DNA from: an uncultured Roseburia sp.
GTDB taxonomy: Bacteria; Bacillota; Clostridia; Lachnospirales; Lachnospiraceae
Assembly (NCBI GenBank): GCA_947062675.1
Contig: CAMSQM010000017.1
Coordinates: forward strand, 1 to 55,817
Direction: 5' to 3'
DNA: 55,817 bases
A model generated the notes under the pieces. It was not told the origin of the DNA and ran no database searches. It was given only the letters and a program-made list of their open reading frames with translations. Made by a program: the position numbers and the translations under genes. This document shows positions 1 to 29,590 of the stretch, in pieces. The stretch's first letter is position 1. The number at the start of each line of letters is the position of its first letter.

Positions 1-65
1 GTCTGAGGGTTTATAGGTATCCCTTGAACAACCTAAATACATTATACAAGGAGGTCAAACACATA

Positions 66-428
66 ATGGAAAGGACTATCAAGCGTGGCGATATTTATTA
101 CGCCAAATTAAATCCCGTTGTCGGCTCGGAGCAGGGCGGCAAGCACAGACCCGTACTTATCATCTCTAATGATATGGGCAACAAGCACAGCACTACGGTC
201 ATTGTGGCGGCAATTACGGGCATGGAACACGTCAAAGCAAAACTCCCCACCCACATCATTGCAAAAGGCTATGAATGCCTTGAAAAAGATTCTATCATCC
301 TGCTTGAACAGATAAGGACACTTGATAAACAACGCCTGCAAGAGTACATTGGTACTTTTGACAGGCGTTTCATGTTATTGGTAGATGATGCCTTGGCTAT
401 CAGCATCGGCATTTCCAAAAAGGACTAA
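66..428 (+). CDS. PemK/MazF-family endoribonuclease toxin
   Basis: A 120-residue protein with the family pattern: an N-terminal [23 protein letters not shown] stretch broken here as RGDIYYA, then [17 protein letters not shown], and a late [13 protein letters not shown] segment. These correspond to the MazF beta-barrel core and its RNA-cutting surface. MazF toxins cleave mRNA at short sequences and are normally held by a small antitoxin encoded just upstream; no antitoxin is visible because the window starts 65 bases before this gene. The ATG at 66 was preferred over the upstream TTG at 24 because an AAGGAGGTC ribosome site sits just before it. It lies on the mobile element, where such genes commonly stabilise inheritance, although in this cassette it could also act as a regulator. 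Confidence 0.85.
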
Positions 429-487
429 CCATCCCGTTATATCGTACAAACCCTAACGAATATCATATAGCGAGGTGGTGTTGATGA

Positions 488-688
488 TTGAAGCGTCGTG
501 AGTTTGTCTATGTCGGAGAGCCTGCTCCGCAAATCACAGAACAGGAACACACAGCGTTTTATCTGCAATTTCAAAAGTCAATACTTGCTTCTCTGAAAAA
601 AAGAGAACTATTGACACACTCGCAGTATGAGCGTTGTATCGAGGAAATAGAAAAGCAATACAGAAAGAACAACCGCAGCCAAGCCTAA
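488..688 (+). CDS. Small SHOCT-like protein of the mobile element
   Basis: A 66-residue charged protein. Its C-terminal half (LKKRELLTHSQYERCIEEIEKQY) has the pattern of a SHOCT domain, a short helical module of unknown function often fused to or encoded beside mobile-element and membrane proteins. The start is a TTG about seven bases after a GAGGTGG ribosome site. An ATG at 484 in another frame gives only five codons, so the TTG frame is the likely gene. It sits between the toxin and the recombinase, all on the same strand; I infer it belongs to the element's integration module, perhaps as an accessory or control factor. No signal peptide or membrane span is seen. Confidence 0.65.
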   Translation: MKRREFVYVGEPAPQITEQEHTAFYLQFQKSILASLKKRELLTHSQYERCIEEIEKQYRKNNRSQA

Positions 689-739
689 ACGCTTGGCTCT
701 TTACATATGTTTCGTGAACCATCGCTACTCAGTCAACAA

Positions 740-759
740 CCCCGCTGCAAGCAGCGGGG
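740..759. repeat. Perfect 9-bp inverted repeat with AA loop
   Basis: CCCCGCTGC, AA, GCAGCGGGG form a perfect palindrome in the 245-base untranslated stretch (689-933) between the SHOCT-like gene and the recombinase. As RNA it would fold into a strong hairpin, but no T-run follows on the plus strand, so it is not a standard terminator. The rest of 689-933 has no recognisable gene. Confidence 0.7.
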
Positions 760-933
760 TATGTGACCCTCGCGGCATTCGCCAAATGGATGCTGGCGCA
801 TCCGCTTGGCTCATTGCCCGCGGGAATCAAGAATAAAAATGTACGATTTCCAAATTTGCACATTCGACAACATACCTCTATGAAACTATACTTAAAATAC
901 GGCAATGCTTTTGTCGGGAAAGGAGCTATTCTT

Positions 934-2673
934 ATGTCAATAGACAAATACGAAACCCTCAATCAAGAGAGAAAAATACAGAATATGAAAAAGAAAGTTG
1001 CCGCTTACTGCCGTGTCTCCACGGACAATGACGACCAGGCAAATTCATTTGAAAGCCAGCAGCGGTATTTCCGCCAGTATATCGAACGTAACCCCGATTG
1101 GGAGCTTTATGCCATATTTGCCGATGAGGGCATCTCTGGAACGAACACGAAAAAGCGAAAAGAATTTAACCGCATGATTGCGTGTGCAAAAAATGGCGAT
1201 TTTGATTTGATTATTACAAAGGAGATTTCCCGTTTTGCGAGAAATACCCTTGATAGTATATTCTATACCCGTGACCTCAAGAAACACGGTGTCGGCGTTA
1301 TCTTTCTGAACGACAACATTAACACCTTGGACGGCGATGCGGAGCTTCGCCTTGCCATTATGTCCTCTATCGCACAGGAGGAAAGCCGCAAGACTTCCGA
1401 GCGTGTCAAATGGGGACAGAAACGCCAGATGGAGCAAGGCGTTGTGTTCGGGCGCAGTATGCTCGGCTATGATGTAAAAGATGGCAAAATGTATATCAAT
1501 GAAGATGGAGCTAAAATCGTCCGTCTTATCTTTCGCAAGTTCGTGGACGAGGGCAAAGGCACCCATGTTATCGCCCGTGAGCTTCGGGAGGAGGGAATAA
1601 GTCCCATGCGTGTGAAAGAATGGAGCAATACCGTCATTTTGCGAGTAATACGCAATGAAAAATACTGCGGCGACTTAGTTCAGAAGAAAACCTATACGCC
1701 AGATTTCCTATCCCATGAAAAGAAATACAACCGAGGACAGGAGGAATTTGTCATCCTCAAAGACCACCACGAGCCGATTATCTCCCGTGAGCTTTTCGAC
1801 AAGGCAAACCGCATTTTAGATGCAAAATCGCTTTCGCAGGAGGGCAAGGCAAAACACAGCAACCGCTATCCGTTCTCTGGAAAAATCAAATGCGGCAGAT
1901 GCGGGGCAAGCTATGTTGCCCGATACAAAACCCGAAAGGATGGAAGCCAGTATAAGGCATGGCGTTGCTTTGAGGGCGCAAAGCATGGAAGCCCCCACAT
2001 CGACAAAGCAGGAAACCAAGTGGGCTGCTCTGGAACAAGCATCCGCAACGAAGAAGCCATCCACATTATGTATCTTGTCTGCAAGCAGCTCACCATTGAC
2101 CGCCAGAAAATAGCGGATAACTTGATTAAAACGATTCAAAAGGTGATTTCACTGGATATGACTGGTGCAGATACAAATACTCTGGAAGATAAAATTGAAG
2201 CGGCGCAGAAAAAACGTACTGATTTGATTGACCTTTACACAAGCGGCGATATTGACCGTGACGAATTTACGGCTCTTAGGGCAAAATACGATGCTGAAAT
2301 CAACGGTTTGAAATCCATGATGGAAAGCATGGAAAAACAGCAGGTTGTAATTGCGAAGCAAAAGGAGCTGATGGAGGACATTAAAAACGCCGTGGATGAG
2401 CTTATCGGCGGCATTGAGTACGAGGATGAATTTTACACACAGCTACTTGACAAAATGGTGATTAACGACAGAGAGAACATAGATGTATATCTGAATTTAC
2501 TTCCCCTTAAATGGAGCTATACGGTTGCGGGCAGCATAAACTGTCTAAAGGACAGACAGCTAAAAAAAGCGTTAGCCTCTGAAAACGCCCTGCAAGCACG
2601 GCGGAACATTTCAGAGGCTTCACTACCGATATCCGTAAGCAGACCTGCCACCTTGCGGTACGGCATGCTGTAA
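934..2673 (+). CDS. Large serine recombinase (integrase/excisionase of the element)
   Basis: A 579-residue site-specific recombinase. The N-terminal resolvase domain (about residues 20-170) has the catalytic serine in AYCRVSTD (Ser29) and the arginine-rich ISRFARN motif. It is followed by the recombinase domain (about 180-300, with GRSMLGYDVKDGK and NEKYCGD), a zinc-ribbon (KCGRCGAS ... WRCFEG ... VGCSG) and a C-terminal coiled coil (EDKIEAAQKKRTDL). Such enzymes cut and rejoin attachment sites to insert or excise their element. The ATG at 934 was chosen for its GGGAAAGGAG ribosome site; an open frame extends upstream to 763 but without family-like residues. The last roughly 18 codons (2619-2673) lie in host cotJC DNA read antisense, so the C-terminus is host-encoded in the integrated state and would change on excision. 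Confidence 0.95.
   Translation: MSIDKYETLNQERKIQNMKKKVAAYCRVSTDNDDQANSFESQQRYFRQYIERNPDWELYAIFADEGISGTNTKKRKEFNRMIACAKNGDFDLIITKEISRFARNTLDSIFYTRDLKKHGVGVIFLNDNINTLDGDAELRLAIMSSIAQEESRKTSERVKWGQKRQMEQGVVFGRSMLGYDVKDGKMYINEDGAKIVRLIFRKFVDEGKGTHVIARELREEGISPMRVKEWSNTVILRVIRNEKYCGDLVQKKTYTPDFLSHEKKYNRGQEEFVILKDHHEPIISRELFDKANRILDAKSLSQEGKAKHSNRYPFSGKIKCGRCGASYVARYKTRKDGSQYKAWRCFEGAKHGSPHIDKAGNQVGCSGTSIRNEEAIHIMYLVCKQLTIDRQKIADNLIKTIQKVISLDMTGADTNTLEDKIEAAQKKRTDLIDLYTSGDIDRDEFTALRAKYDAEINGLKSMMESMEKQQVVIAKQKELMEDIKNAVDELIGGIEYEDEFYTQLLDKMVINDRENIDVYLNLLPLKWSYTVAGSINCLKDRQLKKALASENALQARRNISEASLPISVSRPATLRYGML
2574..2619. repeat. 11-bp inverted repeat at the element/cotJC junction
   Basis: AGCCTCTGAAA (2574-2584) and TTTCAGAGGCT (2609-2619) are perfect inverted repeats separated by 24 bases. 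The right arm ends exactly where cotJC family similarity begins. The overall 46-base span is about the size of a serine-recombinase attachment site, so this may be part of the att site; it might instead be a hairpin at the end of the recombinase message. No T-run follows it. The matching site at the other element end is outside the window, so the crossover bases cannot be fixed. Confidence 0.6.
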
Positions 2674-2810
2674 CGCTGGGACAGATAACGCATCGAGGCT
2701 CCGATTTCTCCGTCCGGCCCTCCGTACTGCGTCATGATAATCTGCGCAATTTTTGCATTCGGCCTTGTGATATTTACCGGATATTCCAGTCTTCTCTCAT
2801 AATTCCACAT
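2619..2810 (-). pseudogene. cotJC: cotJC 5' fragment, interrupted by the mobile element
   Basis: The first 64 codons of a CotJC/manganese-catalase-like spore-coat protein: MWNYERRLEYPV ... QYGGPDGEIGAS ... RYLSQRY ... GLLTDIGSE. Family members run about 190-220 residues and continue after DIG(T/S)E with an EFAHLEM-type metal-binding segment; here the frame instead runs into element DNA (ASEMFRRAC...). The ATG overlaps the cotJB stop (TGATG), so it is the third gene of cotJABC. CotJC is a coat protein made in the mother cell, related to di-manganese catalases. The missing 3' part should lie beyond the left end of the element. If the element is excised precisely, for example during sporulation, the gene could be restored; otherwise it is dead. 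Confidence 0.85.
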
Positions 2811-3079
2811 CAGCAGTTCCCCCCTTCCCACGGCAGCGGCTGCGCAGACCAGGTCCAGAAATCTCCCGGGTTTGCACTGTCAATCGTGAGCGGACCGTAT
2901 TTTTCGGCGTAAGCCCGCATCGCGCATCTGCGCAGGTCAATATAATGGTTAAAATATTTGAGGGCCTCCTCATCCTTCGGATGGGTATCCAGATACAGGG
3001 TGATATCCACGACTGCAAAACTGACCATGTTTATCCAGTGTAAAAGCTGCGCCTGGTTCATCTGGCTGATCATCATCAT
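2810..3079 (-). CDS. cotJB: Spore coat protein CotJB
   Basis: An 89-residue protein matching CotJB: an N-terminal helical part (FAVVDITLYLDTHPKDEEAL), then YFNHYIDLRR and a tryptophan/proline-rich tail (PGDFWTWSAQPLPWEGG) close to the B. subtilis ending. It is made in the mother cell and needed for assembly of the CotJ inner-coat proteins. The start overlaps the cotJA stop (ATGA); ATG codons at 3076, 3073 and 3061 are alternatives and the exact start is uncertain. Its stop overlaps the start of the interrupted cotJC, so the three genes are translationally coupled. Confidence 0.92.
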   Translation of the reverse strand: MMMISQMNQAQLLHWINMVSFAVVDITLYLDTHPKDEEALKYFNHYIDLRRCAMRAYAEKYGPLTIDSANPGDFWTWSAQPLPWEGGNC

Positions 3080-3288
3080 CGCCTGCCAATCCCCCTTCCC
3101 ACAAAAGGTTTGTCAAGCTCCGGGAAAATCGTTCCGACTTCCAGCGCCTTATCCGGTTCATAGACTGTTGTAAAATACTGCCACGGAACATAGGCCATGG
3201 CCGGCACGAAATCATGCTCTGTATATCCATTATCACCGCCGCAGCCACAGGGCTTCTCCACGGGCACCGGCATCCTGTAATTTCTCAT
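3076..3288 (-). CDS. cotJA: Spore coat associated protein CotJA
   Basis: A 70-residue protein with the CotJA core: AYVPWQYFTTVYEPDKALEV then GTIFPELDKPFVG, the same order as the B. subtilis protein. The N-terminus carries a CGCGG cysteine cluster. The ATG at 3288 was chosen over 3294 because it lies seven bases after AAGGA. It is the first gene of cotJABC. A 70-base gap separates it from the upstream coiled-coil gene. A CATAAATT sequence in that gap resembles a sigma-E -10 element, but I saw no convincing -35, so the sporulation promoter is only suspected. Confidence 0.9.
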   Translation of the reverse strand: MRNYRMPVPVEKPCGCGGDNGYTEHDFVPAMAYVPWQYFTTVYEPDKALEVGTIFPELDKPFVGRGIGRR

Positions 3289-3358
3289 GCACATTTCCTT
3301 CCAGATTGTTATCTCTCTATAATTTATGTTCTAAAATCCGGAATGGTGCATAGGAATC

Positions 3359-4543
3359 TTAAGCTTCGCTCAGTTTGTCGATCGAGGAAAGAATCTCTTC
3401 CATCTGCGGGCGCCTCCCGCCTGCCTTGTCCAGCAGACGCATAATTTCCCGTCTGCGGGATTTCAGCTCTCCCAGGTTATATTCAATTCTGCCGCGTACT
3501 TTCTGTCTGCGGGCAATCAGATCGTGTTTGATCTCCACCATCTCCTTTGCATCGACGAGCGCCGCCGCCTGTGTCACCCACACGCGGGAATCGTACAGCT
3601 CATATCCCAGGAGCTGCCGGACCAGCTTGCCGTTATAATATTCCAGATCCTCATTGGTTCGCTGAAAACGCTCCCGATCCTTCACCGCCTCCAGATAATA
3701 CTCCCACTGCTGTTTCAGTTCCGCGGCATTGCGCACATGATATTTTTCACAGGCGTAATCCACGGCATTTTCAATGCTGACGTATTTCAGCTTTACCCTG
3801 TTCTGGAGGACAATGGCGCGGTTGATATGCCGCTCCGCTGATTCAATTTCCGTCTCATCGTTGCGGATTCTCAGATAAATCCAGCAGATCAGAACGGCTG
3901 TAATCAGCGAGTATGCCATCCAGGCATATCGAAGATCTGTTTTTAAAATAACCTGCAGGAAAAAAAGGGCAATTGCCGCCACTGCGGCGATACCTGCCAG
4001 AATATAAAGCATATTTTTAAGATTTACACTCTGATGTCCCAGAAACTCTTTTCGCAGATTCCACTCCGCTTTTTCCCGTTCAAGATACTTCATATCCTTC
4101 TGCAGCGTATCCCGGTACACCTCATTTGCCGAAAAACGCTTGATGGCGGATGGCATCTCATTCTCTTCGAGCTGCATCTGGACGTACTGCGCATCCGACA
4201 GCTTTCTGGAAGAATTGAGAAAACTGGTTCTGGACTGATTCAGGCGCACGACATTCGCCGCCGTCTCCTCAATCTTTCTGCGCTCTTCTCCCTGGAGATC
4301 CTCAAGACGCTGCACATCATTCAGATAGGATGTCAGCCTGCGGTATTCCGCTTTTTCATCATCGACATCCCTCGCCGTTTCCATCATCTGTTCAAGCTGC
4401 TCCACAATATACTGTTCAATTTTCCGCGCACTCTCAATATTTCGCGGCTCTCTCAGATCCTGTTCCGTCAGAATTCCCTCGTCGGATTCCCCGTATTTTT
4501 TTCCCGCTTCTTTTCTTTTTCTGTTCCATTTCCAAGAAAACAT
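3359..4543 (-). CDS. Coiled-coil protein with two membrane spans, last gene of the DUF5717/DUF5716-like locus
   Basis: A 394-residue protein I do not recognise as a named family. Residues 1-170 are charged and helical, heptad-like (ARKIEQYIVEQLEQMME, QRLEDLQGEERRKIEE). Two hydrophobic spans follow at about 179-199 and 206-226 with a short loop. A second coiled-coil region fills the rest (about 228-394, ending EEILSSIDKLSEA). Both helical arms would face the same side, most likely the cytoplasm. It starts 11 bases after the TPR gene stop with an AAGGAAG ribosome site and is the last gene of the four-gene set. I infer it anchors the other three proteins to the membrane. A distant structural analogy to septum or chromosome tethering proteins is possible but not supported by motifs. 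Confidence 0.75.
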   Translation of the reverse strand: MFSWKWNRKRKEAGKKYGESDEGILTEQDLREPRNIESARKIEQYIVEQLEQMMETARDVDDEKAEYRRLTSYLNDVQRLEDLQGEERRKIEETAANVVRLNQSRTSFLNSSRKLSDAQYVQMQLEENEMPSAIKRFSANEVYRDTLQKDMKYLEREKAEWNLRKEFLGHQSVNLKNMLYILAGIAAVAAIALFFLQVILKTDLRYAWMAYSLITAVLICWIYLRIRNDETEIESAERHINRAIVLQNRVKLKYVSIENAVDYACEKYHVRNAAELKQQWEYYLEAVKDRERFQRTNEDLEYYNGKLVRQLLGYELYDSRVWVTQAAALVDAKEMVEIKHDLIARRQKVRGRIEYNLGELKSRRREIMRLLDKAGGRRPQMEEILSSIDKLSEA

Positions 4544-16229: not shown

Positions 16230-18380
16230 TTACATTAATACATTTACATCTAAGATCAATGCAACTTCGCCATCGCCGAGAATGGTCGCACCGCTGATAA
16301 TCTTATTGTTGTTGATATACTTGCCGAGTGACTTGATTACAATCTCCTGCTGTCCCATCAGCTCATCGACGACAAGCCCTGCCTGGCTGTCCCCCTTCTG
16401 CACAATCACTACGGTCAGGCTGGTCGGCTCCTCTTCCTTCGGCTCTGTATCCAGCACCTGATTTAACCGGATCAGCGGAATAACTTTGCCGCGAAGGTGA
16501 ATCACTTCCTGTGCCTCCACATATTTGATATCTTTTACCGGAATGTCCTCGATATTGGAGATGGATCCGATCGCAATCGCATACTTCTCCTCCCCGATCT
16601 CCACCATGAGAGCCTGAATAATTGCCAGCGTCAAAGGAAGACGCACTGTAAAGGTTGTCCCCTCACCTCTTTCCGTCTTGACTTCCACATCGCCGCCGAG
16701 AGCCTCAATATTGGACTTTACAACATCGAGCCCGACACCGCGGCCCGAGATATCGGTGATCTTCTTCGCCATCGAAAAGCTGGGCAGAAACAGAAGATTG
16801 ATAATCTCCTTCTGACTCATGCTTTCCGCCTGCTCATCCGTGATAACGCCGCGCTCAATCGCCTTCTCACGGACCGCATCCACATCGATGCCGCTTCCGT
16901 CGTCCCCCACCTCGATAATGACATTATTTCCTTCCTGAAATGCCTTTAAGAAAATACTGCCGACCTCCGGCTTGCCCATCTCGAGACGCACGTCATTGTC
17001 CTCAAGACCATGATCTGCGGAATTGCGAAGCAGGTGCTGAAGCGGATCTCCGATCTGATCCACTACAGTGCGATCCAGCTCAGTATCCTCACCGGTCATG
17101 TAGAGCTCCATTTTTTTATCCAGTTTACGCGCCAGATCACGAATCATGCGCGGGAACTTATTGACAACACTCTCAATCGGGACCATGCGGACCTTCATAA
17201 CAGACTCATGCAGACTCGTCGTAATGCGCTCAAGTCCCTCAATCTGCTCATGAAAAGACTGATTGTGAAAATCACCGGACTCCGTCTCACTGATTGATAC
17301 AAGACTGTTCTTTGCGATAATCAGCTCTGAAACCTGATTCATCAGCGCATCCAGTTTCTCGATATCCACACGCACAGTCCGGTTTGTGACCGGCTTTGCC
17401 ACCGTCTGCTTCTTTCCTCCTGAGGATGCCGACGAAGGGGATTTTGGCAGGACCGCTGCCGGAGTTTCAGGCGTCACAGCCGTTTTCTCCACGGCAGCCA
17501 CCGCCGTCTCCGGAACTACCGCAGCCGCAGCTGCTGCCGTGGCTGCCGCCTCCGCCTCGGCTTTCTCCTGTTTTGCCGCGAGCGTCTCGTATTTTACCTC
17601 CTCGCCCACAACCTCCTCAATCTCGGAAACACTTTTCGCCGCGTCGAATACTTTCTCGAAAGGTTCTTCCGAAACCATGAAAAAGCTGAAATCACAATCA
17701 AAATGTTCGTCTTCGATCTCCTGGGAAGTCGGATTATAGATTAGAATCTGGCCAAACTCTTCTACCGCCTTGAAAACAAGAAATGCTCTCGCTGCTTTTA
17801 ACAGGCATTCCTTTTGAATATAGACTGTCATGCCATAGATATGCTGCCCGTTTTCCTCTTCCGTTTTAAGCTTTTCCTTATCCGCGTCGTCCACATCAAA
17901 GTCAAAATATTTCTTCCGTCCGGTACTGCCCTCCGCCGCTGCAGCAGCCGGCTGCGCTTCCTTTTTCCCAGCCTTCTCTGCAGGCTGTTCGCCGTTTGCG
18001 GCGGCGATAAAGTCGTTCAGCTCCCTGATAATAATCTCGTTGTCCTCCGTGCCCTCATCCGAGCTCGCCTTGACATTCTCAAGATACCCGTCAATCGCAT
18101 CCAGACACTTAAACAACAGATCGATCATGGCGCTGTTCACTTTTATCTTATCGCTTCTGACCTCCTGAAACACGTTCTCCATATCATGTGTCAGATGCTG
18201 CATTCTTTTAAAACCCATAGTGCCCGCCATCCCCTTTAAGGAATGGGCAGCACGGAAAATCTCGTTGATGACATCCATATTTTCCGGCTCTTTCTCGAGC
18301 TCCATAATGCAGTCACTTAAGGTCTGCAGATGTTCACTTGTTTCATCGATAAAGATTTCCAGATACTGGCTTACATCCAT
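16230..18380 (-). CDS. cheA: Chemotaxis histidine kinase CheA
   Basis: A 716-residue CheA with all five domains. The P1 HPt has the phosphorylated histidine in AAHSLKGMAG (His46). A P2-like domain (about 165-270) binds CheY/CheB. It is followed by an Ala-rich linker (EAAATAAAAAAVV), the P3 dimerisation helices (VDIEKLDALMNQVSELI), the P4 ATPase with N box LLRNSADHGLE, G1 GDDGSGID and G2 GRGVGLDVV, and a P5 CheW-like domain (EKYAIAIGSI ... LRGKVIPLIRL). It passes phosphate to CheY and CheB from receptor signals. The ATG starts one base after the cheB stop, so the two are coupled. Confidence 0.97.
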   Translation of the reverse strand: MDVSQYLEIFIDETSEHLQTLSDCIMELEKEPENMDVINEIFRAAHSLKGMAGTMGFKRMQHLTHDMENVFQEVRSDKIKVNSAMIDLLFKCLDAIDGYLENVKASSDEGTEDNEIIIRELNDFIAAANGEQPAEKAGKKEAQPAAAAAEGSTGRKKYFDFDVDDADKEKLKTEEENGQHIYGMTVYIQKECLLKAARAFLVFKAVEEFGQILIYNPTSQEIEDEHFDCDFSFFMVSEEPFEKVFDAAKSVSEIEEVVGEEVKYETLAAKQEKAEAEAAATAAAAAAVVPETAVAAVEKTAVTPETPAAVLPKSPSSASSGGKKQTVAKPVTNRTVRVDIEKLDALMNQVSELIIAKNSLVSISETESGDFHNQSFHEQIEGLERITTSLHESVMKVRMVPIESVVNKFPRMIRDLARKLDKKMELYMTGEDTELDRTVVDQIGDPLQHLLRNSADHGLEDNDVRLEMGKPEVGSIFLKAFQEGNNVIIEVGDDGSGIDVDAVREKAIERGVITDEQAESMSQKEIINLLFLPSFSMAKKITDISGRGVGLDVVKSNIEALGGDVEVKTERGEGTTFTVRLPLTLAIIQALMVEIGEEKYAIAIGSISNIEDIPVKDIKYVEAQEVIHLRGKVIPLIRLNQVLDTEPKEEEPTSLTVVIVQKGDSQAGLVVDELMGQQEIVIKSLGKYINNNKIISGATILGDGEVALILDVNVLM

Positions 18381-18381
18381 A

Positions 18382-19458
18382 CTACTGTACCCCCACGTTC
18401 TTCGTTATTGATTGTGCAACCTGTGTAAGAGGAACAACTTCATTGACCAGACCGGTATCTGCAATTGCTTTCGGCATTCCGTACACCACACAGGTCTCCG
18501 CATTCTGTGAAATGACATAGACCGGCTTCTTCTTAGCCAGGGAACAGATTCCGTTTGTCCCGTCGGCCCCCATGCCGGTCAGCACGACACAGACCACCTC
18601 GTCATACCCGCAGTCCCGCAGAGAGTCATATGTGATATTGGCACAGGGACGCAGTCCTCCGATCGCCGGCATATCATTGAGCCGGATTTTGTGACTGCCG
18701 TCCGGGGCTTTTTTCACCTCCATATGCTTCCCTCCCGGTGCAATGTAGATCATACCCTTCTTCAAGACATCGCCGTCCTCCGCCTCCTTCACACTGATCG
18801 GGCTTACCTCGTTGAGCCGGTCCGCCATCGATTTTGTAAAACCGGCAGGCATGTGCTGCACGAGAACCATCGGCGCATTCAGATTCTTTGGGAGATAAGG
18901 TATCACACTCTGCAGCGCTTTCGGGCCACCGGTTGAACATGCCAGAGCCACAATCTTGTTTCCGGACCGCGTCGCTGCGGGAAGCCGCTGCGGCGCGGCG
19001 GTTCTGACCGCAGGCTTAGGTGCTGCAGAACTGCGCTTCAGATCCCTGATAAATTTCTCTGTCTTAAGAACTGCGGACAGAACGCCGATCAGCTGTTTGC
19101 GGAATTCCTCACCTTTCGCCTCGACGACATTGTCCGGCTTTGTCACAAAATCGACAGCTCCAAGCTCCATCGCAAGAATCGTGACCTTCGCGTCCTTGGT
19201 GGTCATGGTGCTGACCATGATCACAGTCGCTTTAATTCTGTCCTGCTGGAGCTTCTCCAGAAGTTCCAGACCGTTCATGCGCGGCATATTGACATCAAGG
19301 ACCACGCCGTCATATTTTTTTACCTTTAGCTTCTCGTAAGCTTCCAGACCGTCACGGCAGATGTCCGTCACCTGAAATGTTCCATCTGAATTAATTATAT
19401 CACAGATGACCCTTCTCATGAGTGCAGAGTCATCAACAACCAAAATGTTTTTCTTCAT
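18382..19458 (-). CDS. cheB: Chemoreceptor methylesterase CheB
   Basis: A 358-residue response-regulator esterase. The receiver domain has the acidic pocket VVDDSALMRR and phosphorylation Asp55 in GVVLDVNMPRMNG. The C-terminal methylesterase carries ACSTGGPKAL (catalytic Ser), VQHMPAGFTKSMADRL (His) and VLTGMGADGTNG (Asp). It removes methyl groups from receptors, and its activity is raised by CheA phosphorylation. No cheR is in the window; the methyltransferase must be elsewhere. It is close to the pilZ gene and directly upstream of cheA. Confidence 0.96.
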   Translation of the reverse strand: MKKNILVVDDSALMRRVICDIINSDGTFQVTDICRDGLEAYEKLKVKKYDGVVLDVNMPRMNGLELLEKLQQDRIKATVIMVSTMTTKDAKVTILAMELGAVDFVTKPDNVVEAKGEEFRKQLIGVLSAVLKTEKFIRDLKRSSAAPKPAVRTAAPQRLPAATRSGNKIVALACSTGGPKALQSVIPYLPKNLNAPMVLVQHMPAGFTKSMADRLNEVSPISVKEAEDGDVLKKGMIYIAPGGKHMEVKKAPDGSHKIRLNDMPAIGGLRPCANITYDSLRDCGYDEVVCVVLTGMGADGTNGICSLAKKKPVYVISQNAETCVVYGMPKAIADTGLVNEVVPLTQVAQSITKNVGVQ

Positions 19459-19460
19459 TT

Positions 19461-20216
19461 TTACCTGGCTCCCCTTTGGCGTTCTGCGCGCTCTTTCTCA
19501 AAAATATATTTGACGATTTCCTCACTGATCCTGTTGTCCTTGAACAAAAACTTAAGATGAGACTGATATTTTGCTTCTTTTGCAGCATTTCCATTGTCCG
19601 CCGGCATACAATTAATAACCTTTGCCGGAATATAGTATTCTTTATCGATCGAGTCGCTTTTCAGATGAAGCCCGATCAGAAGATTCTGCTCTTTCGCCAG
19701 TTCTCTGTCCGAAAACAGTCTGCCCCCTCCTCCGCTGATATCGGCGAGCTGCCCGTGGAGCTCCTGACGCTCCTGCCCCTTCGTCCGCATACGGATAAAA
19801 ATCGCATTTCCCGATTCCATATCTGCCTCTTCCCCGGTGATCAGATAATAAAACAGATCCATCAGGCAGGAATAGCGGAAAAACTCACGGCGCTGATACT
19901 TTTCCGGCATCGACCGCAGCTCTGCCAGCAGCATGTAGATATTATCTTTTTTGTACCGCTGGCGTATCTGTCCGACCGCCTGATACATGGACGTCTTTCC
20001 GACAAATATAAATTCGTAGCGCACACCCGCCTGAAGTGCGACCAGCTTTCCTTCCTCGGAAGGCATTGCCATCTCAAAAAGACCGTTGTCCCTAATGTCA
20101 AGCACTTTACTCATGTAAAGTTTCACCTTTTCCCCCGAACGTCCCATCTGCCTTACCTCCTGGAGAAGGCGGATCTCAATCTTATCGCCCGGGCGGATCA
20201 TTTCTGATACTTTCAT
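19461..20216 (-). CDS. PilZ-domain flagellar brake protein, YcgR-like
   Basis: A 251-residue protein. The N-terminal YcgR-like domain (about 1-100, MIRPGDKIEIRLLQE) is followed by a PilZ domain with RREFFR (109-114) and DISGGGGRL (159-167), the two c-di-GMP-contact motifs. Proteins of this type (YcgR, B. subtilis YpfA/DgrA) bind c-di-GMP and slow the flagellar motor by acting on the stator or switch. The ATG at 20216 was chosen for the GGAGG site seven bases upstream; the open frame begins at 20246. Its place between flhG and cheB links c-di-GMP to motility. Confidence 0.9.
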   Translation of the reverse strand: MKVSEMIRPGDKIEIRLLQEVRQMGRSGEKVKLYMSKVLDIRDNGLFEMAMPSEEGKLVALQAGVRYEFIFVGKTSMYQAVGQIRQRYKKDNIYMLLAELRSMPEKYQRREFFRYSCLMDLFYYLITGEEADMESGNAIFIRMRTKGQERQELHGQLADISGGGGRLFSDRELAKEQNLLIGLHLKSDSIDKEYYIPAKVINCMPADNGNAAKEAKYQSHLKFLFKDNRISEEIVKYIFEKERAERQRGAR

Positions 20217-20254
20217 GCTAACCTCCATGCTGCCGCACTGCGGCATTTTTCTGC

Positions 20255-21133
20255 CTACTGTTTCTGCCCCAGAAATTTTGAAAATATCTGTGCTATCCCT
20301 GTCGGTACACTCACCGGATCCTGCTCATGGTTCAGGAGACTGACCGCCATCCCCTCAAATGCCTTCGCTGATCTTGAAGACGGCACATTAAGGGAAACTG
20401 TTTTCTGCTGCTTCACGGACTTTTCCAAGGCATTATCGCGCGGAATCATCCCAAGATAATGCAGCTGCCCCTGCAGGAACTGGGAAACCACTGAATTCAG
20501 CTTGTCATAGACATGCTGTCCCTCCTGAGTGGAAGTAACCCGGTTTGCAACAACGTGTATCGTCGTTCTCGTCCGGATAAAATTGGGATTGCGGTAAAGT
20601 GTTTTTAACAGGGAATACGCATCTGTCAGGGAACTCGGCTCCGGCGTCGTGATCACAAGAACCTCCGGACTTGCAATGACAAATTCCAGAACATGATCCG
20701 AAATACCTGCCCCCGTATCCACAAGAATCACATCCGCCATCTCGTCTAATTCCCGCAGTCCCTTCACCAGATAAAGAATCTGTTCTTTTGAGAGATCATT
20801 CATCCCCGTAATACCGGTCCCCCCGGAAATAAACCCGATTCCGACCGGTCCTTCTGTTATAATGTCGCGAACAGCCTTCCCGCGGTAAATTACATCACTT
20901 AAATTATATTCAGGAATCGCACCGAACATAACTTCCACATTCGCCAGCCCGAAGTCCGCATCGAAAATCAGGACTCTCTTTCCAAGCTTCTGCATCTGCA
21001 CGGCCAGGTTTACGGCAACATTGGATTTGCCGACACCTCCCTTTCCGCTTGTCACGGTAATGACCCTGGCATTCTGTGTAAGATTCTGGTTTTTTAATTT
21101 TACAACATTCCTTAGTTTTTCTGCCTGATCCAT
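20255..21133 (-). CDS. flhG: Flagellar number/placement ATPase FlhG (MinD family)
   Basis: A 292-residue MinD/ParA-type ATPase. It begins MDQAEKLRNVV, the DQAxxLR motif that activates the GTPase of FlhF. Deviant Walker A SGKGGVGKSN is at 29-38, then DADFGLANVEVM and VDTGAGISDHVL. A C-terminal amphipathic helix (GIAQIFSKFLG) probably docks it to the membrane. FlhG limits the number and sets the position of flagella. It lies just downstream of flhF, the usual pair. Confidence 0.96.
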   Translation of the reverse strand: MDQAEKLRNVVKLKNQNLTQNARVITVTSGKGGVGKSNVAVNLAVQMQKLGKRVLIFDADFGLANVEVMFGAIPEYNLSDVIYRGKAVRDIITEGPVGIGFISGGTGITGMNDLSKEQILYLVKGLRELDEMADVILVDTGAGISDHVLEFVIASPEVLVITTPEPSSLTDAYSLLKTLYRNPNFIRTRTTIHVVANRVTSTQEGQHVYDKLNSVVSQFLQGQLHYLGMIPRDNALEKSVKQQKTVSLNVPSSRSAKAFEGMAVSLLNHEQDPVSVPTGIAQIFSKFLGQKQ

Positions 21134-21180
21134 ATATTATCCAAGCCTTTCCAGCTGTACGCAGATTCGCCGGCCCCGTG

Positions 21181-22494
21181 CTATCTGCCGCCCAGCAGCT
21201 GTTTCACAATCTTTTGTGTGTCAAATTCCTCGATGTCATCCGGCACATTCTGTCCTGTGGTCATATAAGACAGGGGCGCCCCGGAATACAGCTTGATATT
21301 GAGCATGTTGCCAAATGTTGTCGTCTCGTCAAGCTTCGTAAAAATCAGCTTGTAATCAGCAATCTCTTTATAGATGTCCGCAATTTCCAGAAGGTCTTTG
21401 TACTTGGTCGTCGCGCTGAGCACCAGATAAACCTCTCTCTCGTACTTTCCCTCCAGCCCCTCGATCAGCCTGCGCATATCCTGGCACTGTGCCTCATTGC
21501 GGTGTGAAAATCCCGCCGTGTCCACAAAAATCAGGTCATAATCGCTGACACGCTCAATCGCCGCATTCATCTCCTCATCCGTATAAATAATGCTCATCGG
21601 GGCATCCAGAATATTCGCATAAATGCGCAGCTGCTCAGTCGCGGCAATCCGGTACGTGTCGGCCGTCAGAAATGCAACTCTTTTCTCAAATTCTACTTTA
21701 TATCTGGAAGCAATCTTAGCGATTGTTGTAGTCTTTCCGACGCCCGTAGGCCCGATAAAAAAGATAATTTTCGGCTTCTTTCCGTTCAGGGCAATCGTAT
21801 CCGGCTGCCCGAGTTTTAAAACCATTTTCTGATAGACGCTTGAAAGAATATAATCCACGCTGCTTCCATTGTGCATGATTTTTTCCGCCTCGTCCATCAC
21901 CTGATTGACGTACTTTTCGTTCACATCATTTTCCAGCAGGGTCCGGTAGAGCATTTTGATGAACTGAAAGCCCTCAGGGTTGGCCGGCTTTGGTTCCAGC
22001 GCATCATCTTTCCGGTTTTCCTCAGCCGACAGCTGCTTCTCCAGAATATAGGACAGATTCTCAAGCCTCTTTTCCAGCCCCTCACTGGTGAGCTCTCCTT
22101 TCGGCTCCGGGCTATTCCCCCTGGAAGAAGAGGCTCCCTGCATACCGGAACCTGTCCTGCCCGCTGTATCCGGCTGTTTTCCGGGCGAAGGCTGTTCACC
22201 CGGCTCACCGGCCGCTTTCTCATTGCTGCGCGGAAGAGGCAGCGACTCATCAGCTGCAAGACTGATACTTTCATGCATCTTAAGCGGAGTGTTTAAGGCA
22301 GTCCGCGGATTTTCAAACCGCTCCTGTTCTTCCACCGCTGCCGTCACCTCAAACAGCGTCCCCTTGAACACGCGCAGCATCCCTTTGGGCTTTACCTCTT
22401 TCACATTAAGGATTACTGTTCCGGGCCCAAGCTCCTGTTTCGCCTTCTCAATCGCTTCTTCTTTTGAGCTCCCCTGATATTTATTTATGGTCAT
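21181..22494 (-). CDS. flhF: Flagellar SRP-type GTPase FlhF
   Basis: A 437-residue FlhF. The N-terminal B domain (MTINKYQGSSKEEAIEKAKQ) leads into a long Pro/Ser/Gly-rich linker (about 60-135), then the N and G domains: GPTGVGKTTTIAK (G1, from about 248), LTADTYRIAATEQL (G2), VDTAGFSHRN (G3) and TKLDETTTFGN (G4/G5). It recruits the first basal-body parts to the membrane and sets flagellar placement under FlhG control. It starts just after the flhA stop. Confidence 0.97.
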   Translation of the reverse strand: MTINKYQGSSKEEAIEKAKQELGPGTVILNVKEVKPKGMLRVFKGTLFEVTAAVEEQERFENPRTALNTPLKMHESISLAADESLPLPRSNEKAAGEPGEQPSPGKQPDTAGRTGSGMQGASSSRGNSPEPKGELTSEGLEKRLENLSYILEKQLSAEENRKDDALEPKPANPEGFQFIKMLYRTLLENDVNEKYVNQVMDEAEKIMHNGSSVDYILSSVYQKMVLKLGQPDTIALNGKKPKIIFFIGPTGVGKTTTIAKIASRYKVEFEKRVAFLTADTYRIAATEQLRIYANILDAPMSIIYTDEEMNAAIERVSDYDLIFVDTAGFSHRNEAQCQDMRRLIEGLEGKYEREVYLVLSATTKYKDLLEIADIYKEIADYKLIFTKLDETTTFGNMLNIKLYSGAPLSYMTTGQNVPDDIEEFDTQKIVKQLLGGR

Positions 22495-22495
22495 A

Positions 22496-24529
22496 TTATG
22501 CCGTCACCATCCCTACTGATTGTAATTCCACATTGGAATCCACCTCGTTGTATGAGACAACGATCAGATCCTTGAAATATTCTTCCGTCAGCTTCTTAAA
22601 GTACATCCTTACAATCGGTGAAGTAATTACGATTGCACTCTTGCCCATGTTTTCAAGCTTCGAGGCCTCCGTCTCGACAGCGCCGATAATTGCCCTGGTC
22701 TTTTCCGGATCCAGTGTGAGATATGCCCCCTGTTCCGTCTGTTTGACGGAAGACATAATCTCCTGTTCTACCTTCGGATCCAGCGTAATCACGCTCGTAG
22801 TCTCATTTGCCGGAAAATATTTGCTTGAAATCGCCCGTTTTAAACTCTGGCGCACATATTCCGTCAGAACATCCGTATCTCTCGTAACCGAGGCATGATC
22901 CGCAAGCGTCTCAAACACCGTAAGCAGGTCGCGGATGGAAATTCCCTCTGCAAGAAGATTCTGCAGAACCTTCTGCACCTCGCCGAGTCCTAAGAGCTTG
23001 GGCACCAGTTCGTCCACCAGCACCGGATTGCTCTCTTTTAAGTTGTTGACAAGATTCTGAACATCCTGCCTGGTGAGCAGCTCTGCAATATGAGAGCGGA
23101 TCACCTCGGTCAGATGCGTCGCGATGATAGACGGGGGATCGACCACCGTATACCCGAGACTCTCCGCCCGCTCTCTCTGACTCTCCGTGATCCAGATCGC
23201 CGGCAGATGGAACGACGGCTCGAAAGTCGGAATACCTGTGATCTCCTCCTCTACATATCCGGGATTCATCGCCATGTAGTGATCGAAAAGAATCTCGCCC
23301 TCCGTCACCTGAACGCCCTTAATCTTAATAATATACTGGTTTGGATTGAGCTGGATATTATCGCGCAGTCTGATGATCGGCACCACGGTTCCAAGCTCCA
23401 GCGCAATCTGCCTTCGAATCATCACCACACGGTCAAGCAGATCGCCGCCCTGGTTGACATCGGCCAGCGGAATAATTCCATAGCCGAATTCCAGTTCAAT
23501 CGGATCAACCTGAAGGAGAGAGACGACATTCTCCGGCTTTCGGATCTCCTCCGCCTCCGTCTCGGCCATGCTTACTTCTTCCTCAATGCTCTCAATTCCG
23601 ATATTCTTATCCACCATTCTTCCGACTACGATAAAAAGAATTCCGAACGGCACAAACAGAAACCACTCCAGCGGCGTCACAATCCCGAGAAAAATCAGCG
23701 TCGTACCGACAATATAGAGTACCTTGGGAATTCCAAAAAGCTGTCCGACAAGAATGTTGGAAAAATCGGCATTCTTTGAAGCCTTTGTCACGAGAATACC
23801 GGTTGCAAGTGAAATCAGCAGGGACGGGATCTGGGAACAGAGTCCGTCACCCATCGTCAGAATCCCGTAATGCTGAATAGCCTCACCAAACTCCATGCCA
23901 TCCCGGAGCACTCCCATTGTGGTACCGCCGATCAGGTTTACAAAGGTAATGATAAGTCCTGCCGCGGCATCTCCCTTCACATACTTTGTCGCACCGTCCA
24001 TGGAGCCGAAAAAGCTGGATTCTTCCTGAATCTTGTTTCTCCTCTCCCTGGCCTCTTTTTCCGTGATTGCTCCGGTATTTAAGTCCGCGTCGATTGCCAT
24101 CTGCTTACCGGGCATCGCATCGAGCGTAAACCGCGCCGTAACCTCCGCGACACGCTCAGAACCTTTATTGATAACGACAAACTGGATAATAATCAGAATA
24201 ATGAATACTATGGCGCCGATAATAATATCACCGCCACCCACAAAAGAACCGAAAGTCTGGACTACATTTCCCGGAGCCCCCGTCTGCAGAATCAGACGGG
24301 TCGATGACATATTCAGGGAAATACGAAACAGCGTTGTAAAAAGCAGAAGTGTCGGAAAAAATGACATATCCAGCACTTCCTTTACAAACAGCGTGTTGAA
24401 CAGCACAATCAGTGCGATTGATATATTGAGCGCCAGCATTACATCAAGTAAAGTGGAGTTCATCGGCACAATAAAAAAGACAACTGCAGCAAGTAAATAC
24501 AGCGCAACGCCAATATCCGCTTTTTTCAT
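22496..24529 (-). CDS. flhA: Flagellar export gate protein FlhA
   Basis: A 677-residue FlhA. The N-terminal half has about eight membrane spans, with the conserved FHIPEP-type loop (ERVAEVTARFTLDAMPGKQMAIDADLN, containing RFTLDAMPGKQ). The C-terminal cytoplasmic domain (about 330-677) binds chaperone-substrate complexes. It is the main component of the proton-driven export gate. It starts 12 bases after the flhB stop. Length is close to the usual 680-700 residues. Confidence 0.98.
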   Translation of the reverse strand: MKKADIGVALYLLAAVVFFIVPMNSTLLDVMLALNISIALIVLFNTLFVKEVLDMSFFPTLLLFTTLFRISLNMSSTRLILQTGAPGNVVQTFGSFVGGGDIIIGAIVFIILIIIQFVVINKGSERVAEVTARFTLDAMPGKQMAIDADLNTGAITEKEARERRNKIQEESSFFGSMDGATKYVKGDAAAGLIITFVNLIGGTTMGVLRDGMEFGEAIQHYGILTMGDGLCSQIPSLLISLATGILVTKASKNADFSNILVGQLFGIPKVLYIVGTTLIFLGIVTPLEWFLFVPFGILFIVVGRMVDKNIGIESIEEEVSMAETEAEEIRKPENVVSLLQVDPIELEFGYGIIPLADVNQGGDLLDRVVMIRRQIALELGTVVPIIRLRDNIQLNPNQYIIKIKGVQVTEGEILFDHYMAMNPGYVEEEITGIPTFEPSFHLPAIWITESQRERAESLGYTVVDPPSIIATHLTEVIRSHIAELLTRQDVQNLVNNLKESNPVLVDELVPKLLGLGEVQKVLQNLLAEGISIRDLLTVFETLADHASVTRDTDVLTEYVRQSLKRAISSKYFPANETTSVITLDPKVEQEIMSSVKQTEQGAYLTLDPEKTRAIIGAVETEASKLENMGKSAIVITSPIVRMYFKKLTEEYFKDLIVVSYNEVDSNVELQSVGMVTA

Positions 24530-24541
24530 GCCATTTCCCCC

Positions 24542-25666
24542 TTAATTTCTGGTATTGTATACCATTGCAAGAATCTCTGCGACTGCCTGATAGAGCTCCG
24601 GCGGTATCTCCGCACCGATATCCACATTCGCATAAAGCATCCTCGCCAACGGTTTATTTTCAACAATTTTTATATTATGTTCTTTTGCCGCCTCACGGAT
24701 TTTCTGTGCAAGATAGTCCTCTCCCTTTGCCAGAACAACCGGTGCTCTGGACTTTTCCGGATCGTACTTAATGGCGACAGCCAGGTGAGTCGGGTTGGTG
24801 ATGACCACATCCGCCCGCGGGACATCCTGCATCATTCTCCGCCTTGAGGCATCCCTCATTACCTGCCTCTGACGTCCTTTAATCTCTGGATTTCCCTCGG
24901 TATTCTTGTACTCATCCTTGACTTCCTGTTTCGTCATTTTCATATCTTCCTTAAAGCGGAATTTCTGATATATATAATCCGCGATACCGACCAGAAGATA
25001 TACAAGGCTGATTTTCAGACCCGCATCCAGTATCACTTCCCCGCAGAGGGCAAGCGCCTGATTCAGCGGAATATCATACAGGATAAAAATATTATCCACT
25101 TTATCCCGGATTGTAATATAAGCGACATAAATAATCACAAATATTTTTAAAATTGATTTAAACAGCTCAAACAGAGAATCTTTCGAAAAAATCCGCTTAA
25201 AGCCGTTAATAGGATTAAATTTATCAAACTTCGGCTTCATCGGCTTTGTGGAAACTTTCCAGCCGACCTGCAGAATACTGATGATAAGCGTCATTGAAAA
25301 TCCAAACGCAAAAAACGGAGATACCATCTTTAACATCATCCAGTATACAGACCGGAAAAATGTACCCACTGCCTGTGGGGAAAGTTCCGCCGCATTCACC
25401 GAGACAAATTCAGGTATCATGCCGTAGACAAAACGAAACATTTCAAGAAAACCGTTTCCTATAAACGACATAAATATCCTCAGCACCAGAAAGAGAACAA
25501 TCAGATCAAAAGCGGAGGTCAGCTCCTTGCTTTTAGCAACTTTTCCCTCTTCCCGTGCTTCCCTGAGGCGTTTGCCAGTCGCCGGCTCTGTTTTTTCACC
25601 GCCCGGCCCGTCCTTTGCAAACCATTGAAGGTTATATTGAAGTACCAATCCTGTTTTCTGTCCCAA
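24542..25666 (-). CDS. flhB: Flagellar export switch protein FlhB
   Basis: A 374-residue FlhB with four membrane spans and a cytoplasmic domain holding the self-cleavage motif NPTH (291-294, in VITNPTHLAVAI). Cleavage lets the export apparatus switch from rod/hook to filament proteins with FliK. The start is a TTG at 25666 with GGAG five bases upstream; no closer ATG keeps the conserved KTEPATGKRLREAREEG segment. It follows fliR by 16 bases. Confidence 0.97.
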   Translation of the reverse strand: MGQKTGLVLQYNLQWFAKDGPGGEKTEPATGKRLREAREEGKVAKSKELTSAFDLIVLFLVLRIFMSFIGNGFLEMFRFVYGMIPEFVSVNAAELSPQAVGTFFRSVYWMMLKMVSPFFAFGFSMTLIISILQVGWKVSTKPMKPKFDKFNPINGFKRIFSKDSLFELFKSILKIFVIIYVAYITIRDKVDNIFILYDIPLNQALALCGEVILDAGLKISLVYLLVGIADYIYQKFRFKEDMKMTKQEVKDEYKNTEGNPEIKGRQRQVMRDASRRRMMQDVPRADVVITNPTHLAVAIKYDPEKSRAPVVLAKGEDYLAQKIREAAKEHNIKIVENKPLARMLYANVDIGAEIPPELYQAVAEILAMVYNTRN

Positions 25667-25682
25667 TCTGCTCCAGTCCTTA

Positions 25683-26462
25683 CTAATACATTCCCTCTAT
25701 CATCGAAACCATCATCCGTTTCATCTCCCGGAAGATAAAATCCGCAATCCCAGGCAGCAGCGAAATGGTCAGAAATAATACCAGAAGTCCAACCAGTACC
25801 TTCATCTGCATACCAACCGCAAACATATTCATCTGAGGCGCTACCTTTGCCATGATTCCCAGAATACAGTTGAGTATCATAATACAGACAAAAATCGGCA
25901 GCATAATTCGAAACGCGATGACAAACATATCCGTCATAAACATTATCATTGAGGTCAGAAGACTGTCCCAGTCAAGAATCTGCCCGTTTACCGGAATCAC
26001 CCGGTATGAATCCACCATAGCTCTTAAGATAAAATGATGCATATCTGTGACCACCAGCAGCAAAAGAACAAAATACTGATAGAGGTTACCGGTAATAGAT
26101 ACCTGGCTTCTTGTCATTGGATTAAACTGCATCGCCATCGAAAGCCCGATGTCCATATCGATGACATTGCCTGCAAATAAAATAATGGAATTACATACGT
26201 TTGCAGCAAGTCCTATCAGCAACCCCGTAATTCCTTCCTTTAAAACTATAACCGCATATCCGAACAGACCTGTATACCCTATCCCTGTCTTATCAGCAAC
26301 CCCGTATATCACAAGAGCTGTAAATGCAGAAAATCCGGCTTTTACCCGCTTCGGAACTCCCTCCGTTCCAAAAAAAGGGGCAACCGAGACAAAGCAGGCT
26401 ACACGCACCAGTATCAGCAACAGTATTTCAAAATTGACCAGCGAAAATGTATATTCCGGCAT
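25683..26462 (-). CDS. fliR: Flagellar export protein FliR
   Basis: A 259-residue membrane protein with about six spans (ILLLILVRVACFVSVAPFFG; ALVIYGVAD; LLIGLAANVCNSIILFAGNVID). The PFFG and GLSMAMQFNPMT-like regions are typical of FliR. It forms the helical export gate core with FliP and FliQ. It lies between fliQ and flhB, the standard order. Confidence 0.96.
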   Translation of the reverse strand: MPEYTFSLVNFEILLLILVRVACFVSVAPFFGTEGVPKRVKAGFSAFTALVIYGVADKTGIGYTGLFGYAVIVLKEGITGLLIGLAANVCNSIILFAGNVIDMDIGLSMAMQFNPMTRSQVSITGNLYQYFVLLLLVVTDMHHFILRAMVDSYRVIPVNGQILDWDSLLTSMIMFMTDMFVIAFRIMLPIFVCIMILNCILGIMAKVAPQMNMFAVGMQMKVLVGLLVLFLTISLLPGIADFIFREMKRMMVSMIEGMY

Positions 26463-26470
26463 ACGTCATC

Positions 26471-26737
26471 CTACCCCAGATAATAACTGAAATCCCATAA
26501 CCGCTCGATAAACTCGATCAGATTATTCAGAATCCAGGAGCCAAAAATCATTATTCCAACAAATATTGCCAGCACTTTCGGAACGAACGTGAGCGTCTGC
26601 TCCTGAATGGAAGTCACTGTCTGAAAAATACTGACAATCAGTCCAACCACCAGGGAAATCAGCAGCATGGGCGCCGCGCAGATGATAATCGTATAAAGCC
26701 CGTCTTTGGCAATATCCAGAACCTGTCCCTGTGTCAT
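26471..26737 (-). CDS. fliQ: Flagellar export protein FliQ
   Basis: An 88-residue protein with two membrane spans (LYTIIICAAPMLLISLVVGLIVS and VLAIFVGIMIFGSWILNNLI) joined by the conserved FQTVTSIQEQTLTFVPK segment. Four copies normally join FliP and FliR in the export gate. Length matches the family exactly. It follows fliP by 24 bases. Confidence 0.96.
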   Translation of the reverse strand: MTQGQVLDIAKDGLYTIIICAAPMLLISLVVGLIVSIFQTVTSIQEQTLTFVPKVLAIFVGIMIFGSWILNNLIEFIERLWDFSYYLG

Positions 26738-26761
26738 CTGCCCCTCCTGTCAAAAATCAGA

Positions 26762-27625
26762 TTAATAAAATGTCTTTACAATCTCACCGAGTACCAGATT
26801 CCATCCATCTGCCAGTATAAAAAGCAGAATCTTAAACGGAAGCGAGATCGTCGTCGGCGGAAGCATCATCATACCCATCGACATCAGCACAGACGATACA
26901 ACCATATCAATCACAATAAATGGAATATAAATCAGAAATCCCATCTCAAATGCCTGTCTCAGCTCACCGATGATAAAAGCAGGTACAATAAGCGTGAAAG
27001 GAATCTCGTCATAATCCTCTGCATTCTCTAACTCCGGATAGACTTCTCCTGAGATATCCATAAACAGTCTCAGATCGCGCACCTGCATATCCCGGTACAT
27101 AAAAGTGCGAATAGGCATCTCTGCCTCAGACAGAGCCTGTTCTATCGAGATCTGTCCCTCATCCAGCGGCTTCAGAGCCTTCTCATTAATCTCTGAAAAT
27201 GTCGGCCACATAATAAAGAAAGTCAGAAACAGCGCCAGCCCGATCAGGATCTGGTTCGGCGGCGCAGTCTGTGTACCGATAGCTGTGCGCAAAAAATGAA
27301 GTACAATAATAATGCGCGTATAACCGGTCAGCATGATCAGAAGCGACGGAGCCAGCATCAGAATCGTGAGCACCAGCAGCATTCTCACCGTCGATGAAAG
27401 AGTGACATCGTCGCCATTGAAATTTACTGAAAAACTATTTCCTGTACCGTCGTTGTCTGCACCGCCGATTCCCGTCCCGCCCGCCGTATCCCCGATTCCC
27501 GCATTTCCTGCTTCTGCGGCATACACTGTGGTCTCTGCCCTCATAAAAACGCATAGAACCAGAGAAACTACCGCCACTGCGAACAGAACCGAAATAATAC
27601 AATATGATTTTTTCTTTTTCGTCAT
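26762..27625 (-). CDS. fliP: Flagellar export protein FliP
   Basis: A 287-residue FliP. An N-terminal signal-like segment (SYCIISVLFAVAVVSLVLCVF ... VYAAEA) is followed by a Gly/Asp-rich stretch, then the four-span core: MLLVLTILMLAPSLLIMLTGYTRIIIVL, RTAIGTQTAPPNQILIGLALFLT, PAFIIGELRQAFEMGFLIYIPFIVIDM and GMMMLPPTTISLPFKILLF. Five copies form the gate ring. The Gly/Thr-rich insert after the signal is longer than usual. Confidence 0.97.
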   Translation of the reverse strand: MTKKKKSYCIISVLFAVAVVSLVLCVFMRAETTVYAAEAGNAGIGDTAGGTGIGGADNDGTGNSFSVNFNGDDVTLSSTVRMLLVLTILMLAPSLLIMLTGYTRIIIVLHFLRTAIGTQTAPPNQILIGLALFLTFFIMWPTFSEINEKALKPLDEGQISIEQALSEAEMPIRTFMYRDMQVRDLRLFMDISGEVYPELENAEDYDEIPFTLIVPAFIIGELRQAFEMGFLIYIPFIVIDMVVSSVLMSMGMMMLPPTTISLPFKILLFILADGWNLVLGEIVKTFY

Positions 27626-27628
27626 AGT

Positions 27629-28030: not shown

Positions 28031-28031
28031 A

Positions 28032-28391: not shown

Positions 28392-28434
28392 AACAATCTC
28401 TCTCCTATTCCCTACATTATTAATTTATAGCTTG

Positions 28435-29589: not shown

Positions 29590-29590
29590 C

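Follow-up and report, generated by a model that had tools for sequence, protein, structure and literature searches.

Insertion of a serine recombinase element in the spore-coat gene cotJC of a Roseburia genome and recurrent division of cotJC in Clostridia

The question raised by this locus is whether a spore-coat gene has simply been disrupted by a mobile element or is held in pieces that are reunited during sporulation. The window, by which we mean the whole 55,817-nucleotide stretch of contig CAMSQM010000017.1 from an uncultured Roseburia sp. (assembly GCA_947062675.1), opens within an element that carries its own large serine recombinase and that abuts a truncated cotJC. We consider it likely that the window contains the left attachment site (attL) of a site-specific element comparable to skin, which would be excised in the mother cell during sporulation with restoration of cotJC. 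The insertion site, the crossover core, the arms, the tie between recombinase and target, and a restorable frame in relatives could all be established at the level of sequence. Two grounds lead us to propose excision in the mother cell: the analogy with skin, and the listing of both cotJB and cotJC among the sigma-E genes of Bacillus subtilis (PMC3416734).

The left junction and its counterparts in relatives

The first-pass annotation, made from the window alone, had described intact cotJA and cotJB genes followed by a cotJC interrupted by an element that encodes a large serine recombinase of its own, and the open reading frames (ORFs) and Pfam matches agree with this (PF11007 and PF12652 for the first two genes). 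Only the first 64 residues of the Mn-catalase/CotJC family are present in the window, where the family match fades after ∼64 codons; the fragment has 89% identity to an intact CotJC from the same genus. The position of the cut had been given as after codon 64, with DIGSE as the end of the host sequence, and this has to be corrected. When 27 attL and 9 right (attR) junctions of the same recombinase family were compared, the crossover mapped to a GGTA core after codon 61, within the codons for Asp-Ile-Gly-Thr-Glu; the ‘SE’ of DIGSE comes from the element, whose sequence here resembles TEE. The core reads GGCA or GGGA in 3/27 attL and GGAA in 2/9 attR sequences. The element side of these junctions carries inverted arms like GGAACATTTC..GCTTC, and the arm in the window would be one half of the inverted repeat expected in the attachment site of the free element (attP).

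The window begins at the contig end (G000:C17:1; G and L numbers are our labels for genomes and loci), so that nothing lies to its left. The assembly (2,996,907 bases, 94.86% complete) gave a single PF05067 hit and thus no cotJC 3′ piece, and an attR-like pattern with two mismatches allowed had 0 hits in this genome. With only attL available, rejoining could not be demonstrated here and relatives were used instead. The best 80 of 154 related recombinases from a contig scan were taken; many of their hosts are Lachnospiraceae, others being Oscillospiraceae, Ruminococcaceae and more. A cotJC 5′ fragment was found less than 400 bp from the recombinase, on the opposite strand, in 66 of the 80 loci. 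The remaining 14 comprised three with the fragment at 2–3 kb, ten without it in the fetched flank and one at a contig end. As so many homologous recombinases adjoin the same gene at the same place, the cut in the window is not a chance event.

An inventory was made of 39 genomes drawn from the 80 loci (several of the survey counts, marked ‘by eye’, were made from listings). Both 5′ and 3′-side pieces of cotJC were present in 37 of them (by eye), the 3′ side being missing in G345 and G362, and in 22 the pieces lay in order on one strand of one contig, separated by elements of 2.9 to 72 kb (by eye). The last ∼20 codons, beyond a cut near codon 178 (site E, see below), were sought in five genomes only. 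The cotJC 3′ fragment that had been predicted at the far end of the element, in the same orientation and in frame, was therefore found in relatives with the same recombinase family.

When the pieces were joined at shared sequences without frame restriction and the join with the best score was selected out of many, a frame running on into the 3′ piece was obtained at 26 of 27 junctions. No such join was obtained for G039, the join for G061 was placed five codons off because of the search range, and the cores in G216, G127, G209c and G191 were just 2 nt long. When only in-frame joins were considered, all 25 chains gave one frame; five of these lost the match near codon 178 because of site E, and the choice of core left G333 one codon too long and G051 one codon too short. 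Rejoining is more strongly supported by the core itself, which recurs at the same codon across many genomes and is identical to the intact gene. The attL and attR of relatives share a core and a restorable frame; the window genome holds attL only. The cotJC motifs that we take to be metal-binding are spread over separate pieces, and 48 to 50 of the 51 rejoined frames retain them.

In one locus (L128:4001-6001), recombinase and cotJC 3′ part share a strand and the recombinase frame seems to continue directly into the latter, an open frame of 728 aa being present there; most loci are convergent.

Recurrent cut sites and their recombinases

PF05067 matches were surveyed in 60 relatives, in 294 genomes of the order, 64 of which were chosen as split-looking, and in 118 genomes of the class. 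The pieces break at recurrent positions of the PF05067 model (about 28–35, 60–70, 94–114 and 140–151), and cotJC has five or more cut sites, at about codons 30, 61–68, 97, 134 and 178. Among the 64 chosen genomes, at least 53 hold two or more pieces from different parts of the gene (by eye); in G132, G223 and G289 the stretch between the pieces is missing. With six others, this makes at least 59 of the 183 genomes of the order sample with a match in which cotJC is in pieces (by eye), and the class sample gave about 19 of 84 (by eye). The last piece, beyond site E, was found in four of five genomes; in G332 it was not found within 20 kb. Some hosts of a split cotJC also carry an intact copy (e.g. 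G127, G129, G146 and G216). Cultured commensals with the split gene include Lachnospiraceae bacterium A2, Parablautia muri and COE1, the last of which has an intact copy as well. Genes in four pieces were seen in G051, G261 and G129, where they were joined, and also in G101.

Repeated 3′ pieces occur in a few genomes. Two tandem copies lie ∼3 kb apart in G172 (C68:14708-18625), and G119 and G222 each have several C-terminal pieces on one contig, perhaps reflecting tandem or duplicated elements.

To relate the recombinases to the cut sites, a tree was built by a quick method from 47 selected junction recombinases, with short rows (L046, L047) and near-duplicates left out; the tool warned of long branches meeting. 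The tree requires five changes of site, which is the least possible, compared with a mean of 20.7 after shuffling. The recombinases of sites A (12), C (6) and E (3) each occupy one side of a branch, those of site B divide into the window's group (14) and a second group (10), and site D is represented by one long row beside C. The G129 recombinase (L191), found at a cut near codon 127, is nested in the second site-B group, which suggests that the target has shifted within one group. Since the recombinases group by site, several different enzymes have come to cut one 600-bp gene. At the junctions of the window's family the recombinase was identified by Pfam, and at the other sites by motif rather than Pfam.

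Content of the element

The features of the left junction region are collected in Table 1. The recombinase has the Resolvase, Recombinase and zinc-ribbon domains of the large serine class and matches a PHROG integrase (E 4.8e-134). By NCBIfam it is a relative, not a member, of CcrB of the Ccr recombinases (134.6 bits, cut-off 900 bits) and of XisF, the fdxN element excision recombinase (119.2 bits, cut-off 375 bits). Its frame crosses attL and ends inside cotJC in antisense. The sigma-A-like promoter upstream is partly conserved across 72 aligned regions upstream of recombinases. For the hairpin just inside the element, 1/200 shuffles was equally good, and an Rfam search of window positions 1-4000 gave 0 matches.

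Table 1. Features of the left junction region of the cotJC element, in window coordinates
Feature	Position	Strand	Basis
MazF/PemK-type toxin gene, cargo	66..428	+	Pfam PF02452, E 4.7e-30
Promoter-like block upstream of small ORF, weak in the window copy	436..467	+	Motif scan
Small ORF, 66 codons, candidate recombination directionality factor	488..688	+	Position and conservation
Putative sigma-A-like promoter, TCGACA-17-TATACT, upstream of recombinase	864..892	+	By eye; inference
Large serine recombinase, 579 aa, convergent with cotJC	934..2673	+	ORF; Resolvase, Recombinase and zinc-ribbon domains
Terminator-like hairpin with a downstream run of seven T, cotJC strand, just inside the element	2562..2624	-	-28.8 kcal/mol, z -2.75
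attL element arm, GGAACATTTCAGAGGCTTC	2603..2621	+	Similar arm, inverted, on the attR side in relatives
Crossover core, GGTA	2624..2627	-	Junction comparison with relatives and their joins
cotJC 5′ fragment, 61 codons plus GGTA core	2624..2810	-	Pfam PF05067 positions 1-65; boundary from attL/attR of relatives
cotJB, intact	2810..3079	-	ORF; Pfam PF12652, E 5.3e-30
cotJA, intact	3076..3294	-	ORF; Pfam PF11007, E 7.7e-20

The small ORF was found in 73 of the 80 loci, in 71 of these within ∼500 bp upstream of a family recombinase (by eye) and farther away at L111 and L152. The seven loci without it start at a contig end or have a recombinase without an N-terminus. The 66-aa protein had no family match in Pfam, NCBIfam or PHROG searches; that it is a recombination directionality factor (RDF) is a guess from its position and conservation. 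In Eubacterium plexicaudatum ASF492 (L158, L160) the small ORF lies ∼55 kb off at the opposite end, next to two ORFs that have serine-recombinase motifs, an arrangement that looks like the work of a second element. ASF492 and 14-2 were dropped as study strains, the recombinase lacking its N-terminus in both.

A Pfam search of seven proteins of the G332 element and three of the G359 element, both related to the window's, gave AbiEii, AAA, TIM barrel, ABC transporter, IS66 fragment and other matches, with no phage or conjugation families among them; a PHROG search of three of these ten proteins gave weak matches only, one to a spanin at E 7e-4. The G332 element (L154:2161-9765) carries AbiEii, a MazF-like gene and an IS66 fragment, which is addiction-type cargo. 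Further along the contig of the window, positions 16230-34963 encode CheA-like, FHIPEP and flagellar hook proteins and are ordinary chromosome.

Developmental excision and its alternatives

The first-pass annotation had left open whether the element is excised during development or merely disrupts cotJC. Three lines of evidence favour the former: the grouping of recombinases by site, the sporulation context of the hosts, and selection on the detached 3′ piece; excision, cell type and timing are proposed from these and from analogy. Of 43 hosts with a partial or split cotJC, 38 contained the sporulation gene spoIVA, which is present in the window's genome, and the five negative genomes are 80–90% complete. 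It was also found in 3/3 genomes with intact cotJC only and in 3/10 without cotJC (all by eye). The split gene is itself a sporulation gene, with expression in the mother cell known from B. subtilis only.

Selection was most clearly seen in G146 and G299, where the site A elements are colinear in patches with 73–78% DNA identity. The proportions of synonymous and nonsynonymous differences (pS and pN) are 0.65 and 0.15 for the recombinase. The cotJC 3′ piece has a pS of 0.53 and only 11 nonsynonymous changes, compared with 202 expected if neutral (Nei-Gojobori counts, Fisher p 8e-33); the 5′ piece has 5 compared with 54. Element and gene have thus diverged together, and these counts indicate that the detached 3′ piece has been under purifying selection in one genus. 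G252 has the recombinase end in common with this pair, and its 3′ piece comparisons gave 9 against 231 and 15 against 286 expected. Six further same-site pairs, for which a shared insertion is not established, had 8 to 60 nonsynonymous changes against 72 to 280 expected. The median pN/pS was 0.324 in 248 same-site split pairs and 0.337 in 66 intact pairs, with synonymous sites near saturation in most. The 3′ pieces were free of stops in 33 of 34 cases, the sole stop being on the element side of the core; because protein similarity was the criterion for picking these pieces, badly decayed ones would have escaped notice. G127/G216 was set aside as a selection case (0 nonsynonymous changes against 29 expected in the 3′ piece) because an identical recombinase and 5′ piece leave long residence undemonstrated.

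Several observations weigh against developmental excision. No excision product, as reads or circle, was seen, and viral contigs yielded 0 matches to the attP pattern. Compared with four intact relatives and a split one, the window's 5′ fragment has a pN/pS of 0.07 to 0.15, values in which change before and after insertion is not separable. In 125 of 135 pairs with recombinases less than 5% apart, cotJB is more than 35% apart; the window's family therefore moves horizontally, so many insertions may be young and the conservation of their pieces may predate them. Although recombinase and cotJB distances are correlated (Mantel r 0.30, reached by 0/2000 permutations), this family was for that reason not used as evidence of long residence. 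In G455 (C1:225392-453465), which also has an intact copy, two cotJC pieces occupy opposite strands of a single contig and would not be reunited by simple excision; an inversion perhaps followed insertion. In addition to two intact copies, G274 has a cotJC fragment containing four stops, and some further listed pieces show a stop, many where the match overruns the cut or the gene end. The window-type recombinase of ASF492 lacks its N-terminus. Finally, CotJC-type proteins or their catalase activity are reported to be unnecessary for coat formation (PMC3533761, PMC11222575).

The horizontal movement, the dispensability of the protein and the G455 arrangement are also what would be expected if mobile elements target cotJC for its conserved DNA, the insertions being recent and disruptive and the conservation left over; the cuts do fall in well conserved stretches. 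This explanation is strongest for the window's family, yet overall we regard it as unlikely. It does not readily account for the deficit of nonsynonymous changes in G146/G299 after element and gene had diverged together, and the low ratios of the six other pairs, the stop-free 3′ pieces and the four-piece genes that still rejoin point the same way, with the reservations given above.

A second alternative, that random excision in a fraction of cells, without developmental control, yields enough intact cotJC, is considerably less probable. The sigma-A-like promoter of the recombinase would fit it, as would the circles of the yin element reported at all time points (PMC10747680), but the skin recombinase of Clostridioides difficile is also constitutive, with timing set by the RDF (PMC5025042), whose expression under sigma-E and SpoIIID restricts excision. 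In part of the window's family a sigma-E-like block precedes the candidate RDF: 13/28 dereplicated copies score at least 12/15, against a null of 5.6%. The window copy scores 10/15 only, and the scan, which used an assumed consensus, barely marks the cotJA control (13/60 at 12 or more, null 12.5%); these two results weigh against developmental excision, and the block is suggestive only. That the pieces function as separate proteins, or that the splits are assembly artefacts, is barely credible: several pieces reach contig ends, the window's contig included, but split genes occur in single-contig genomes (G061, G189, G146, G252, G216 and G475) and spoIVA was unsplit in 44/44 hits, on which grounds an artefact was rejected, and the presumed metal-binding motifs lie on different pieces of frames that retain them when rejoined.

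By comparison with relatives, the recombinase of the element cut cotJC at the GGTA core. If the element is excised during development, cotJC would remain split in vegetative cells. In the sporulating mother cell the recombinase would join attL to attR, probably aided by a directionality factor for which the 66-aa protein is a candidate. The element would depart as a circle, leaving cotJC rejoined in frame within the cotJABC operon. The mother cell would then lyse while the forespore retained the element, so that the split gene would be inherited. The element in the window would not be alone in this, since several kinds of element would exploit cotJC likewise, with five or more sites between them.

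One close parallel is gin in gerE of Bacillus cereus ATCC10987 (PMC5595907), likewise a non-phage island with serine recombinases in a mother-cell gene, with a short core and in-frame restoration. The target gene differs, excision was measured for gin and is proposed for cotJC, and one gin insertion site is described in the part of the source used. Like skin, which lies in sigK in B. subtilis and C. difficile (PMC5025042), the cotJC element has a serine recombinase at the junction and lies in a mother-cell gene; skin has an RDF where there is a candidate here, whose role and timing are conjectural, and skin interrupts the gene of a sigma factor where this element interrupts that of a coat protein. 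SPbeta in spsM, vfbin in spoVFB and vrin in spoVR (PMC4191935) and yin in yabG (PMC10747680) are also restorable elements inside sporulation genes, but these are prophages or prophage-like, whereas the ten proteins searched above have no phage family by Pfam. The phi027 prophage of C. difficile (PMC11222575, PMC12122855) is a mobile element at a cotJC paralogue, described in the text used as adjacent to it and not splitting it. The split targets known from these sources are sigK, spsM, spoVFB, spoVR, gerE and yabG (PMC5595907, PMC10747680, PMC4191935); no report of cotJC as an element-split gene was found in the literature searched, most subscription papers and all preprints lying outside it.

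For the Clostridia as a whole, we lean, with less assurance than for the window itself, towards a view of cotJC as a docking gene colonized by five or six recombinase lineages, in which some genes would need assembly from three or four pieces by two or three independent recombinases in each mother cell, a form of programmed somatic gene assembly. In the sources cited, only a few genes of spore formers are known to undergo developmental rearrangement, and to these cotJC would add many natural replicates. The system offers matched pairs of recombinase and site for genome engineering, and may provide a test of why elements pick genes that are needed only in a doomed cell.

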